Positions 6,979-12,396 of a stretch of DNA of 12,396 nt are shown here, piece after piece. The stretch covers positions 1 to 12,396 of the forward strand of contig JALWSI010000211.1 of NCBI GenBank assembly GCA_027080315.1, read 5' to 3'. The position numbers were made by a program, and so were the translations under genes. The notes under the pieces are model-generated. The model made no database searches. It was not told the origin of the DNA and saw only the letters and a list, made by a program, of their open reading frames with translations. The stretch comes from a bacterium (GTDB taxonomy: Bacteria; Thermosulfidibacterota; Thermosulfidibacteria; Thermosulfidibacterales; JALWSI01). Positions within the stretch are counted from its first letter, which is position 1; each line of letters opens with the position of its first letter.

Positions 6979-9480
6979 TCAGAGCCCTGCTATCTTCTCA
7001 ACAGCCTCTTTTATCTCCTTTATCTTGTAGGGTTTCTGTAGATACAGCTTGGCCCCCATCCTTATGAGCTCCTCTGCCGAGCTATCGAATGGATGACCCG
7101 ATGAGATAATCACCTTTGCTTGGGGATCGTAATCTAAGATAAGCTTCAATGCGTCCTTTCCTGAAAGGACCGGCATAGTGATATCCAAAAAGACAAGATC
7201 GGGGTTCACCTCTTTGTAGAGCTTTACCGCCTCTTCTCCGTCTTTTGCCAGCACCACTTTATGACCAAGATGGCCTAAAACGGTATTGCCAATATCCCTT
7301 ATTATCTCTTCATCATCTGCCACAAGAATGGTAAGCTTCCTCACAGAGGTTTTATGGACCTCCTTAATATCCTCTTTTTTATCACTCTTTTTTTCTTCTC
7401 CATCTCTACTATCAATCGCAGGTATATAAAAGGTGAACTTGCTTCCTATTCCCCTTTCGCTCTCTACAATAATCCATCCACCATGCTGCTTAACCAGTCC
7501 ATACACCGTGGCTAAACCCAATCCTGTTCCTTTATCTATCTCCTTAGTGGTGAAGAAGGGATCAAAGACCTTTGAAAGCACCTCTTTATCCATGCCACAA
7601 CCGTTATCTTCAACAGCAAACACCACGAATCGCCCCGTTTTAGCATAGGGGAATTGAAGCACATAGTCTTCCTCTATCATTATGTTCCTTGCCGAAAGTA
7701 GAATCCTTGGTGGGTCCTCTTTAAGTCCCGTAGCATGCTCGCACCTTCCCTCTATTCTATCCATCAGAGAATCCTTTGCATTCAGACACAGGTTCATTAA
7801 TACCTGTTGAAGCTCTGAAGGATCAGCCTTAACCTGCCATAGTTCCTCCCCATACACCGTCTCAATAGATATCCTTCTGTCTATGGTTCTCTTCAAAATC
7901 TCAACCGTCTCTTCCACTACAGAGCGAGGATCAACCACCTTCATCATCACAGGAGCCTGCCTTGTGAAAGCAAGAAGCCTCTTGGTTATCTGAGAGGCCT
8001 GTTGGACCACCTTCTCTGCAGACTCTGCATACTTGGCCATCTCGCTATAATCACCTCTCTCTTCAGCGGTTAAGGTGATCAGGTTGAGGTTTCCAAGAAT
8101 GGCTCCAAGCATGTTGTTGAAGTCATGGGCTATCCCCGATGCCAGAACCCCTATTGCCTCCATACGCTGGGCATGGGAAAGCTGTTGCTCCAACTGGTGC
8201 TGAACGGTTATGTCTATGAAACTCACTATGCCTGCCACATTGCTATTTGAAATGTGCCCTAAACGGGAGAATTGGGACAGCACGTATAAGCTACGCCCCT
8301 CCTTTGTTTTGGCCATCTTCACAACAGGAGCCAGCTCCCCCTCTAAGGGTTCAGATGGAATAGCCCCCTCCACGCAACCCTTGCAGGGAGGAAAGACCTG
8401 AAGAACCTCGCACACAGTTCTTCCCAAGGCCTCACCCTCTGAGAAGCCCGTTATGGATCCAGCAGCCTTATTCCAGAAGAGGATCTTCATGTTCTTATCC
8501 ACCAAGGCTATGCCCGATGGCAAAGAATGTATCACGCTCTCCATAAACTCCCGGGAAATGGTGGTCTCCCTAAGTTTTGAAACCATGGTGTTGAAGGCAT
8601 CGGTCAGATCTTTTAGCTCACCGGAATCAAAGGACTGGATTCTAACCGAAAGATCCCCCTGATTAACCTGCTTCATCCCTTTCAAAAGGCTATCTATGGT
8701 TCTGGATATCCCTCTTCCTATGCGAATGGCTATTCCCAAAGATAGTAAGAACACCACAAGTATTATTAGGGTGATGGGAAGCATAACCCTGTAGAGATTG
8801 CTTCTCATGATCTTTTCGGTATGCAAGGCCACTCCTGAAAAGACCCCTTTTGAGAGCCGCATAGACTGCATCACGCTATCTGTCTCCACCTTTGCCCCAA
8901 CCACCAGCAGGTATCCATCACGCGATCTCTCTTGCAAAGGCACCAGAAAGGCAAAGCACCTCTTTTTTATCCCATAACTTCCTGGTGGAGCCCAGTTGTA
9001 GAAACCACTTGCATAGTGACCCTTGGCAGCATTCTTAAACATTCTTATCAGGGCAGGGCTATTAGCAATAAACTTTGTGTAGTCATGTCCATTAACCTCA
9101 GGCATAGGGTGCGCCACAGCCAGATTCTTATCTGGAGCAATGAGAAAGGTGTAGCCATGGCTTAGGAGGGGTTGAGCCGCTATATTGTAGAGTTCTTTAT
9201 CTTTCACCATCTCATCCAAAGTCTCCGGATGTTGCTGAAGATAGAGAGAGACCTCTAAAGCCACATCCAAAGCCTTCTGGCGGGTTAAGGCCTCCATGTG
9301 GGCCTCCACCTTCTTTTGAATTCTGTGTTCCGCCTCTGAGAATCCCCTTAGCAGGGTTGACCGTATCTGTGAAACTACGCTCTGTCTATAAGAGAGAACC
9401 GCCACCAATCCTGCCACTAAAGGAATAACGCTGGCCACCAGTATTATGAGCAGGATTCTGTGAAAGACCTTTTTGGGCAC
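6979..9480 (-). CDS. Hybrid sensor histidine kinase: Cache-HAMP-PAS-HisKA-HATPase-REC
   Basis: An 833-residue membrane kinase. From the GTG at 9480: membrane helix 1 (about 6-30), an extracytoplasmic Cache-like sensor (about 45-215), membrane helix 2 (about 232-254), HAMP (255-308) and PAS (about 312-425). The PAS carries a Cys pair in PPCKGC. Then come HisKA with phospho-His452 in [10 protein letters not shown] and the ATPase with Asn box [10 protein letters not shown] (N567), D625 in DNGCGMD and [12 protein letters not shown] charged linker leads to a receiver with acceptor D766 in FLDITMP and K816. The start is one nucleotide after the stop of the upstream lipoprotein gene, with AGAAGGGA as ribosome site; an ATG at 9513 would overlap that gene. 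The receiver has no output domain, so a separate phosphotransfer or regulator partner is needed and is not in this window. The binding-protein genes just upstream suggest what it senses. Confidence 0.92.
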
Positions 9481-9481
9481 T

Positions 9482-10507
9482 TTAATTCCCTTCTGGAGAG
9501 TCAATAATGTCATCAGCCCTAAGCAGAACGGGCCTTGGGATGGTGATGTTCAGCTTTCGGGCCACAGTAAGATTAACCCTTATGTGTCTGCTGTTGCTGG
9601 GACGAGAACGCAGTTTGTCAGGAGAAAGTCCAGAAAGCACCTTGTAGGCCATATCTGCCGCCTCCTCCCCAGCCTCGTAATAGCTAACATACTCTGAGAG
9701 AACCGCTCCCTTCTCCGCGATATCTCTAGTTATACCCACCACGGGTACCTTATTCTTCATGGCAACATGCAAAGCCTTATTCAAGAAAGGAGATGAATAT
9801 AGTACGGGATCGGGAGCGAAATAGAGAAGATCCACCTTTTTGGCAAGCTCATCTATCTTCCTTAAGCTTTCCTCAAGCTCAGAGCTATTAAGAAACAAGA
9901 GCTCAGGTTTACCCCCCAAAGAGCTTAATGTTTTTGCAAAGTCTTGAGAGGTGATCACCGCTGGACGGGTATCGGGGAAATACACAATCCCCACCTTTTT
10001 GGCCCAAGGAAATGCCTCTATGATAACCTTCACCCTCTCAACTACAGGGATCTCCACTCCGATACCTGCCATGTTTTTGGGTGGGGATAGATATGACGGA
10101 ATTATACCCGTACGGTCTGGAGAGGTGGTTGCTGTGAAGATTAAAGGTATCTTAGAACGCTCTTTTTGAAGCACCTTCTTGGCCTCTAAGGCAGCAGGAG
10201 TGCCCAAAACAAGAAAGATATTTGGCTGCCATTGAATCAGCTTTTCTGCAAACTTCTTCGCTAACTCCCTATTCTCATCACAAGAAAACCGCAACACTTT
10301 GAGGTTAACCCCCTCCACGTAGCCCTTGGCCCTCAGGGTATCCATAAATCCGTCAAAAGCATTACAGTACGCCGGAACCCTGTCACTCCACTGAAGCACT
10401 GCCAGCTTGTAACTCTCCTTCTTAGTGCATCCTTGAAAGAGCAACACCAACACAGGCAAAGAGACGATAAAAAGTTTTGAAAACACCCGTTTATTTATCC
10501 TTATCAT
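9482..10507 (-). CDS. Substrate-binding lipoprotein, ABC_sub_bind family (proximal to kinase)
   Basis: A 341-residue two-lobed periplasmic binding protein of the PF04392/COG2984 type (the TrpX-like group, some members of which bind aromatic amino acids). The signal sequence ends in LLFQGC, so C27 is likely lipidated. Family-type stretches are VLQW (37-40), a LVLGTPAALEAKK segment, IPLIF, GIGVEIPV and VGIVYFPD. It is clearly homologous along its full length to the lipoprotein encoded upstream. The stop codon is one base from the kinase start, so translation is coupled. The start is uncertain: AAGGAG directly abuts the ATG at 10507 with no spacing, and GTG at 10486 (residue 8) would leave an intact signal peptide. 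No permease or ATPase gene is adjacent, so a sensory rather than transport role is proposed. Confidence 0.88.
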   Translation of the reverse strand: MIRINKRVFSKLFIVSLPVLVLLFQGCTKKESYKLAVLQWSDRVPAYCNAFDGFMDTLRAKGYVEGVNLKVLRFSCDENRELAKKFAEKLIQWQPNIFLVLGTPAALEAKKVLQKERSKIPLIFTATTSPDRTGIIPSYLSPPKNMAGIGVEIPVVERVKVIIEAFPWAKKVGIVYFPDTRPAVITSQDFAKTLSSLGGKPELLFLNSSELEESLRKIDELAKKVDLLYFAPDPVLYSSPFLNKALHVAMKNKVPVVGITRDIAEKGAVLSEYVSYYEAGEEAADMAYKVLSGLSPDKLRSRPSNSRHIRVNLTVARKLNITIPRPVLLRADDIIDSPEGN

Positions 10508-10575
10508 CTCCTTAGCGGAATCTCCCTATATTTCCTCTCCTATTGAGAGAAGTGTACCTGAAGAACGATTTTAGT

Positions 10576-11598
10576 TCAATGTACCAATTTGGGGGCATCC
10601 TTATCAGAGTTGATGTCTATTATTTCCCTTGCCTCCAACATGATACTCCGAGGTATGTTTATACCCAAGGCCCTCGCCGAGCCTATGTTTATGGCCAAAT
10701 AATGGCTTTGTCCTGGACGCGGAGCGATCTTACGTGGAGGGGTTCCATGAAGCACCATGTCAACCATATCCGCTGCCTCCACACCTTGTTCGTAATAGTC
10801 TGAGTATAGAGCCAAAAGGGCACCACTTTTCACAGAGTTTATGGTCACTCCTGTAGTCGGCTTTCCCTTGGACAAAGCCTCATCAATAACCCCTTTAAGG
10901 GTAGATGGAACATAGAGTACAGGGTCGGTAGGTAGATAGATAACATCACATTGTGAGCTTATCTTTCCTATCTTCCTAACGGCAGCTCTGGGACCTTCCT
11001 TTTTTGACAGCGCAAGGGTTATTGCCCTTACTCCTTTCTCTTCCAGTATCGCCCTGGCTTCGGTGGCGGTTATACCCGCTTGAGGATTATCAGGGAAATA
11101 AGGGATCACCACCCTTTTAATGTGAGGAAGAACCCTTAGCAAAAGATTCACCCTCTCTCTAACCGGCGTCTCAGCGCCTATACCTGTTATTCCTTTTTGA
11201 GGATGATAAGAGTCTATGACTCCAGTCAGATGAGGAAAGGCGCACCCAACAAATACCAAAGGAATTGATGAGCTTTCAGGGTGCAGGACCTCCTTTGCTG
11301 CAAGAGTTGCTTTGGTTCCAATGGTGACGATGAGATCCGGGCTCTCATTTTTCCACCTATTGATCACCCTTTTGGCGAGATCGTAATCGCCCTTTGCTAT
11401 CACACGTTTAATGTCAATATTAACCCCGGGTTTGTATCCCTTACTGCCAAGGCTCTCTGTGAGCCCATTGTATGCATCGTAATAAACCTCTGCCACTCCC
11501 CATTGCAGCACCCTTACTGAAGGAGAGTCATCGCTGCTACACCCTAAGCAACAACAAAAAAACAAAACCACAACGATAAAACATATTCTCTTAATCAA
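10576..11598 (-). CDS. Substrate-binding lipoprotein, ABC_sub_bind family (distal paralogue)
   Basis: A 340-residue paralogue of the next gene, with the same VLQW opening (residues 30-33), IVTIGTKATLAAKE, IPLVFVG, GIGAETPVRERV, IPYFPD and the ADMV segment near the C-terminus. The signal peptide is short and has a Cys-rich end (FCCCLGC); C20 follows a slightly atypical lipobox. The start is TTG at 11598 with GAGAGG seven bases upstream; no better ATG lies close. Sixty-eight nt separate it from the second binding-protein gene, with no terminator seen, so the two and the kinase probably form one transcript. Pocket-lining residues cannot be assigned, but differences from the paralogue (for example GCAFPHLTG against ATTSPDRTG) suggest the two may bind different ligands. 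Confidence 0.87.
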   Translation of the reverse strand: MIKRICFIVVVLFFCCCLGCSSDDSPSVRVLQWGVAEVYYDAYNGLTESLGSKGYKPGVNIDIKRVIAKGDYDLAKRVINRWKNESPDLIVTIGTKATLAAKEVLHPESSSIPLVFVGCAFPHLTGVIDSYHPQKGITGIGAETPVRERVNLLLRVLPHIKRVVIPYFPDNPQAGITATEARAILEEKGVRAITLALSKKEGPRAAVRKIGKISSQCDVIYLPTDPVLYVPSTLKGVIDEALSKGKPTTGVTINSVKSGALLALYSDYYEQGVEAADMVDMVLHGTPPRKIAPRPGQSHYLAINIGSARALGINIPRSIMLEAREIIDINSDKDAPKLVH

Positions 11599-12002: not shown

Positions 12003-12396
12003 ACGCAGCACCCAAGCGCCCCAACCACCGCCCGGCGCCGATCATGGCCAGCCTGAGCACCCGACCCACGGCGCGCCACCCGCCTCGTGCCCGGCATGCT
12101 CGACGTCACGGACATGATCTGCCTCGGTGCCGCCTGCTGCTCGCTTCGCTCCGACGACTCCGTGTGGTGCTGGGGACGGGCCTACGCCGGCGACCTCGCG
12201 ACGGCCAAACTCGGCATTCACCAGCCGCGCGCCGACGACCGCATCCCCGAGCCGGTGCCGGGACTGGAGGATGTGCGACGCGTGATTCCCACAACCACTG
12301 TCTCTGTGGAAACCCAGACTGGACATGAGGTCTTGATCCTTGGAGCAGCCCTGCTCGACCTCACCGTGGAAGACCCCGGTGGACATCCCGCACCGA
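12003..12396. other. GC-rich sequence of different origin at the right end
   Basis: From about 12003 the base composition changes sharply: for example 12061-12120 is 43/60 G+C, against 29/60 for 11701-11760. The codon use in the readable frame is strongly GC-ending, unlike any gene to the left. Near 12287 the RCC1-like similarity stops and the last 110 bases look different again; I recognise nothing in them. Two successive breaks within 400 bases at the window end argue for a chimeric join. Confidence 0.75.
12057..12287 (+). pseudogene. Fragment of an RCC1-repeat protein from a high-GC genome
   Basis: The frame following the TGA at 12054-12056 reads about 77 codons of RCC1-like sequence. A repeat boundary is RLVPGMLDVTDM, followed by CCSLRSDDSVWCWGRAYAGD, cut short here for brevity, and a second boundary PEPVPGLEDVRRV. 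The SVWCWG core and the VPGL-DV spacing are typical of RCC1/alpha-tubulin-suppressor repeats, common in secreted proteins of myxobacteria-like, high-GC organisms (family knowledge). There is no start codon with a ribosome site and no natural end: similarity stops at about 12287 although the frame stays open to base 12396. Bases 12010-12056 may be an earlier repeat in a shifted frame. It is not part of the neighbouring genome's gene set. Confidence 0.6.

Follow-up and report, generated by a model that had tools for sequence, protein, structure and literature searches.

Two PF04392 binding proteins encoded with a Cache hybrid histidine kinase: a probable transporter-free sensory unit

Organization of the locus

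The window (the whole stretch of 12,396 nucleotides analysed here) carries on its minus strand, one after the other, the genes of two binding proteins, SBP-A (11598-10576) and SBP-B (10507-9482), and of a hybrid sensor histidine kinase that ends at 6979. Both the positions of the open reading frames and the PF04392 matches agree with a preliminary description of this DNA, in which two tandem paralogous ABC_sub_bind genes had been placed upstream of a kinase. SBP-A (340 aa) starts with TTG, with GAGG seven bases 5', and SBP-B (341 aa) with ATG; their matches to PF04392 (ABC_sub_bind) reach 133.7 and 128.4 bits, respectively, for a cut-off of 25.9. The two proteins are 38% identical over 322 aa, both frames are intact, and in the tree they are sisters with support 100/99. 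Their hydrophobic N-termini, as read from the sequence, contain C20 in SBP-A (CCCLGC20) and C27 in SBP-B (LLFQGC27); the lipobox residues are not canonical, and the proteins may be called lipoprotein-like.

The kinase (6979..9513, minus strand) measures 844 aa from the ATG at 9513, the mechanical call, or 833 aa from a GTG at 9480. The GTG appears the better start, since it has AAGGG seven bases 5', while the ATG would overlap SBP-B by 32 bases and has a poorer ribosome site. The alignment with the kinase of a related locus, L190 (see below), begins just past that kinase's own start. At the resulting coupling site TAA-A-GTG (9478..9484, minus strand), one base separates the SBP-B stop codon (9484-9482) from the probable kinase start, as expected from the translational coupling claimed previously.

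Downstream of its sensor region the kinase contains a HAMP domain (aa 265-316, 8566..8721; PF00672, 9.2e-08), a PAS domain (aa 322-436, 8206..8550; PF00989, 5.7e-10, plus PAS_9), a HisKA and HATPase_c core (aa 457-699, 7417..8145; PF00512 and PF02518) and a C-terminal REC domain (aa 729-839, 6997..7329; PF00072, 7.7e-23), all on the minus strand. HisKA scores 25.0 bits, just below the Pfam cut-off of 26.9; the phospho-acceptor H463 (in HDFNN), the N-box, the G-boxes and the REC phospho-acceptor D777 are all present, so that HisKA, HATPase_c and REC stand in one chain with their catalytic residues, as in hybrid histidine kinases. The PAS domain also includes a Pro-Cys-Lys-Gly-Cys motif (PCKGC, aa 376-380, window 8374-8388), which is possibly redox- or metal-sensing.

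A Sir2 gene in convergent orientation follows only three bases after the kinase gene, so that the unit ends with the kinase. Apart from the REC domain that the kinase itself carries, no response regulator adjoins it. Four Hpt-type matches were found in the genome, each within a larger open frame on another contig. On the other side, the sole visible gene 5' of SBP-A is a truncated M48 peptidase gene (12011-11712), within which, from about 12012, the GC content jumps from about 0.46 to more than 0.62. The sequence beyond this break (12012-12396) is RCC1-like coding sequence on the opposite strand, with weak Pfam matches, and is probably a chimeric contig end; the true upstream side of SBP-A is consequently visible only to 12011. 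Scans for sigma-70 promoters and terminators gave sites no more numerous than in shuffled sequences, and no tRNA or Rfam matches were found in the window.

The sensor domain of the kinase

Hydropathy predicts two transmembrane segments in the kinase (TM1, aa 12-30; TM2, aa 245-263) with a 215-aa loop between them. Pfam gave no Cache-clan match above the cut-off for this loop, the best being dCache_2 (14 bits against 26.5, E 0.027). The same profiles also miss the Cache domain of the clear homologue L190, suggesting that the low score reflects the sensitivity of the profiles. The AlphaFold2 model of the window sensor alone was poor (pLDDT 62), while the addition of L190 as a single homologue raised the pLDDT to 78.7, with values of 76-97 by 10-residue block in the core. 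This model has a Cache fold, that is, a long N-terminal helix followed by an alpha/beta PAS-like core, and in VIA structure alignments it matches 3lib (Z 13.9, rmsd 2.4 over 130 residues), 4k08 (Z 13.1, rmsd 2.9 over 133 residues) and 5g4y (Z 12.9, rmsd 3.5 over 137 residues), and thus both single and double Cache structures. According to the model the sensor is a single extracytoplasmic Cache domain, at about aa 71-215 (8869..9303, minus strand). The Cache domain proposed in the preliminary description hence holds by structure, but not at Pfam thresholds.

Search for a transporter partner

No permease or ATPase gene flanks SBP-A, SBP-B or the kinase in the ORF list of the window, as had been noted before, with the upstream view ending at 12011. 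The search was extended to the whole assembly, which comprises 1.84 Mb in 253 contigs and is 94% complete. PF04392 occurs at four places in this genome: SBP-A, SBP-B, a lone protein on contig C134 and a fusion on contig C72 (L006 467-3241), in which PF04392, a transmembrane segment, PAS, GAF and a histidine kinase form a single chain of 924 aa, with a response regulator gene directly 3'. A query for PF04392-type permeases found no match at E 10 in the 94%-complete genome; as an empty answer alone proves nothing, the search was repeated with eight control genomes, and the same query matched in 8/8. The PF02653 permeases that the genome does encode are of the Liv type by sequence and occupy four loci, at three of which they stand with their own unrelated periplasmic binding proteins, the fourth being cut by a contig end. 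Neither an adjacent permease and ATPase nor a cognate permease elsewhere was therefore found in the 94%-complete assembly. Permease and ATPase partners elsewhere in the genome were what the preliminary description had named as evidence against its proposal, and the outcome of these searches favours the proposal.

It could still be imagined that SBP-A and SBP-B serve an ABC importer encoded elsewhere and that the kinase regulates that importer. PF04392 does include true transporter binding proteins, such as TrpX and CD0873, the locus is truncated upstream in a fragmented assembly, and a transporter could lie in the missing part of the genome. Against this stand the permease search with its positive controls, the binding proteins already allotted to the PF02653 loci, the position of SBP-A and SBP-B outside the transporter clade (see below) and their scores with the TrpX profile NF041285, 121.3 and 115.8 bits for a cut-off of 390. 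We consider such a distant importer very improbable; the data support a transporter-free unit of binding proteins plus kinase.

Gene context of PF04392 proteins

PF04392 was searched for in 386 diverse genomes, and 120 loci with 137 binding-protein ORFs were read. Twenty-nine of the 137 ORFs lie directly upstream of a histidine kinase gene (gaps of -32 to 165 bases, median 15), 18 directly upstream of a permease gene and none of both. A second set gave a similar division, with 16 of 42 followed by a kinase, 22 of 42 by a permease and none by both. The kinase and permease profiles were built from few seeds and distant members may be missed, so these counts are lower bounds. Counting how often the family stands beside kinases with no transporter had been proposed as a check in the preliminary description, and the number is high: a kinase gene commonly follows a PF04392 gene, and the window is in this respect no exception. 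The permease-linked proteins are clustered in the tree, with 5 changes where shuffling gives 17, and most of those linked to kinases fall outside their few groups. Exactly two predicted transmembrane segments flank an extracytoplasmic domain in 26 of the 29 partner kinases of the first set; among those scanned with Pfam, CHASE8, sCache or dCache matches, some of them weak, were detected.

Other layouts of PF04392 genes were seen as well. PF04392 genes lie directly upstream of genes for proteins with GGDEF-like motifs at L111 (5954-9026) and L123 (2102-5199), for which a cyclic-di-GMP output is possible. Proteins of about 1000 aa at L191 (3808-6897) and L193 (3844-6831) resemble three PF04392 domains per chain and lie near permease, ATPase and other large transporter-like or regulator-like genes, while at L094 (4122-7046) PF04392 is matched twice, and a permease once, within a single open frame. 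At L088 (5961-12709) and L108 as many as six PF04392 genes stand in tandem, adjoined by neither a permease nor a kinase gene, and at L016, L018 and L019 PF04392 genes lie between or beside outer-membrane-protein-like genes.

Relatives of the binding proteins and of the kinase

A contig scan with SBP-B as single sequence found no relative, and an 11-row alignment was dropped as query because it was too diverse. A joint scan with SBP-A and SBP-B led to L190, in the Deltaproteobacteria MAG contig JAFDEW010000077.1, where one binding protein, 32% identical to SBP-B and encoded by the only PF04392 gene of its genome, ends 12 bases before a hybrid kinase of 975 aa; the sensor regions of this kinase and of the window kinase are homologous (4e-40). 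We then searched 395 genomes of the phylum of L190 with SBP-A, SBP-B and L190 as queries and read 40 loci.

In the resulting tree, SBP-A and SBP-B join 10 other binding proteins in a clade of 12 that stands apart from the clade holding all 39 permease-linked proteins; the support is 82/56, or 99/81 one node deeper, and the placement may be regarded as moderately supported. A pattern scan showed D-P-[VI] throughout this clade where transporter binding proteins carry D-N (DN in 37 of 39). A Cache kinase gene lies directly downstream at all 11 loci of the clade, eight of them with the sensor family of the window and three with double-Cache-like sensors (L233, L235 and L234, the last cut by a contig end). 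Besides L190 and these three, the binding-protein gene is directly upstream of a Cache-HAMP hybrid kinase gene at L236-L239, L241 and L244. All these relatives resemble the window in the order of binding protein and Cache hybrid kinase and in having no adjoining permease, but they have one binding protein, larger kinases (921-1439 aa where complete) and, in most cases, no Cache motif; two binding proteins are found only at the window locus.

The pairing with a Cache kinase has been inherited in genomes that are far apart. The binding protein remains beside the kinase while the type of sensor changes, which argues that the linkage is selected. A mirror-tree comparison of binding protein and sensor gave r 0.78 (8 of 40320 permutations). 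This is no better than the correlation of the binding protein with the kinase core (0.90), and the co-variation consequently indicates co-inheritance only; as evidence of contact it was set aside.

Erosion of the Cache motif in linked sensors

To look at the sensor from the opposite side, a profile made from the kinases linked to binding proteins was searched in the same 395 genomes and found matches in 51 of them. The seven strongest matches are linked sensors from which the profile itself was made, and their linkage is thus built into the search; what is informative is the lack of a binding-protein gene beside the other homologues, together with the difference in motif. No binding-protein gene lies within about 1.5 kb of 25 homologous sensors (the next 23 loci plus L188 and L189), which belong to HD-GYP proteins, kinases and short Cache-HAMP proteins. 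These 25 show hardly any variation at the residues G-[YF]-Y-x-W, R-x-K and T-x-Y-x-D-E. In the linked sensors, on the contrary, most of the motif is lost or deleted in six of eight, including L237; L190 retains nearly all of it, and the window sensor keeps G-F-Y-x-W and has lost R-x-K and the T/Y/E residues. If the motif forms the ligand pocket, as its conservation would indicate, this pattern suggests that the Cache pocket was lost after ligand recognition had passed to the binding protein.

Seven of the homologues (L280, L282, L284, L288, L296, L299 and L301) are Cache-HAMP membrane proteins of about 300 aa without an output domain, and a receiver-domain gene follows several of them.

Since the window Cache keeps G-F-Y-x-W, and L190 nearly the whole motif, a direct Cache ligand is possible. 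The Cache domain might then bind its own ligand alone, SBP-A and SBP-B being orphans kept for periplasmic buffering or for an unrelated permease; the 25 homologous sensors that have no adjoining binding-protein gene also point in this direction. It should be noted, moreover, that neighbouring genes need not encode docking partners: the sensor domains of AgtS and AruS did not bind the binding proteins whose genes lie close to theirs, although an ABC transporter operon is present in the case of AgtS (PMC11113362). However, a Cache that works alone does not account for the Cache kinase downstream at 11/11 clade loci, for the loss of the motif in most linked sensors, or for the loci L233-L235, where the binding protein has kept its place next to a hybrid kinase although the sensor there is a double Cache, and we judge this explanation unlikely.

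Proposed mechanism

Given that no matching importer was found in the 94%-complete assembly and that the pair recurs in other bacteria, SBP-A and SBP-B most likely inform the kinase rather than feed a transporter. The binding proteins and the kinase lie in one operon, and the kinase has an extracytoplasmic domain between two transmembrane segments. Our main reading, to which we assign a probability of about 0.72, is that of a sensor kinase which depends on binding proteins, has no transporter attached and would work in the manner of CuaDSR or LuxPQ. Both the fusion of PF04392 with a kinase on contig C72 and the precedent of CuaD (PMC10384115) speak for it. To the observed gene order, the lack of a transporter partner, the clade-wide linkage, the Cache fold and the motif erosion this reading adds docking and ligand binding, which we infer together with the phosphorelay. 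SBP-A and SBP-B would sit anchored in the envelope, facing the periplasm, where both, or one of them, would close on a small ligand and dock on the single Cache domain. By way of HAMP and PAS the change would reach the HisKA/HATPase core. Phosphate would be transferred from H463 to D777 in the REC domain of the same chain, then presumably to an Hpt protein and on to a putative response regulator. In this kinase-linked family, the binding protein may largely have taken over ligand recognition from the Cache pocket. In the window lineage it was apparently duplicated, so that a single kinase may receive a pair of related ligands, or inputs of two affinities.

As to the ligand, sequence matches to the solved structures 3lkv (6e-32), 6hni (4e-20) and 3lft (1e-12) show the same family and fold. 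In the PF04392 proteins of known structure the ligand is Phe, Tyr or Trp, and two positions are said to set the side-chain preference (PMC6816091). At both positions SBP-A and SBP-B share Thr and Tyr, and the nearby segments differ from the solved proteins too. An aromatic amino acid is a possible ligand, not a predicted one.

In a stronger form of the main reading, SBP-A and SBP-B would each recognise a ligand of their own and one Cache dimer would receive both proteins, with the kinase integrating two signals. Their deep divergence in intact frames fits such a scheme, as do the segments around the binding cleft, with TTSP in SBP-A against CAFP in SBP-B and GTPA against GTKA. The shared Thr and Tyr at the known specificity positions (PMC6816091) and the single binding protein at every other clade locus oppose it, and we hold two inputs of this kind to be possible but on balance doubtful. 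The broader proposal, that the kinase-linked PF04392 family has left transport, that its Cache now serves as a docking platform and that the duplication in the window provides two chemically distinct inputs, is speculative and seems to us rather improbable as a whole.

Comparison with known systems

PF04392 proteins are routinely annotated as substrate-binding proteins of ABC transporters. Many members, including the whole clade of SBP-A and SBP-B found here, have a kinase downstream and no adjoining permease, and such annotations may misname their function. Moreover, the linked and unlinked sensors form a natural series, from L190 (motif kept) through the window (part kept) to L237 (lost), along which the Cache may be changing from a domain that senses a ligand directly to one on which a binding protein docks.

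Periplasmic binding proteins dock on the extracytoplasmic domain of a kinase in LuxP-LuxQ of Vibrio, TorT-TorS and XylFII-LytS. These systems differ from the window in their binding-protein families and partner arrangements, and each has a single binding protein. Several of them are cited in PMC9602780 and PMC10384115. Transporter-free kinases linked to binding proteins are already a known kind, and the preliminary description over-read the novelty of the locus. In the literature on PF04392 or TrpX-type proteins with kinases, in a coverage that leaves out most subscription journals, the arrangement was not found.

TrpX, CD0873 and VC_1101 share with SBP-A and SBP-B the PF04392 family and, by sequence, the fold. 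They have permease and ATPase partners, however, and where a structure has been solved the ligand is an aromatic amino acid (PMC6816091), while in SBP-A and SBP-B DP replaces DN and the scores are far below the TrpX cut-off. In CuaDSR of Ruminiclostridium cellulolyticum, too, a binding protein is encoded directly with a two-TM HAMP kinase: CuaD is a signalling-only lipoprotein that binds the extracytoplasmic part of CuaS (PMC10384115). Unlike the window, it has one binding protein, of another family and with a sugar ligand, a separate response regulator, CuaR, and a matching importer, CuaABC, next door (PMC10384115). Compared with these systems, what is new here is that the binding protein is of the PF04392 family and duplicated, that it is paired with a Cache kinase and that the Cache motif apparently erodes in a series, while the principle itself is known.
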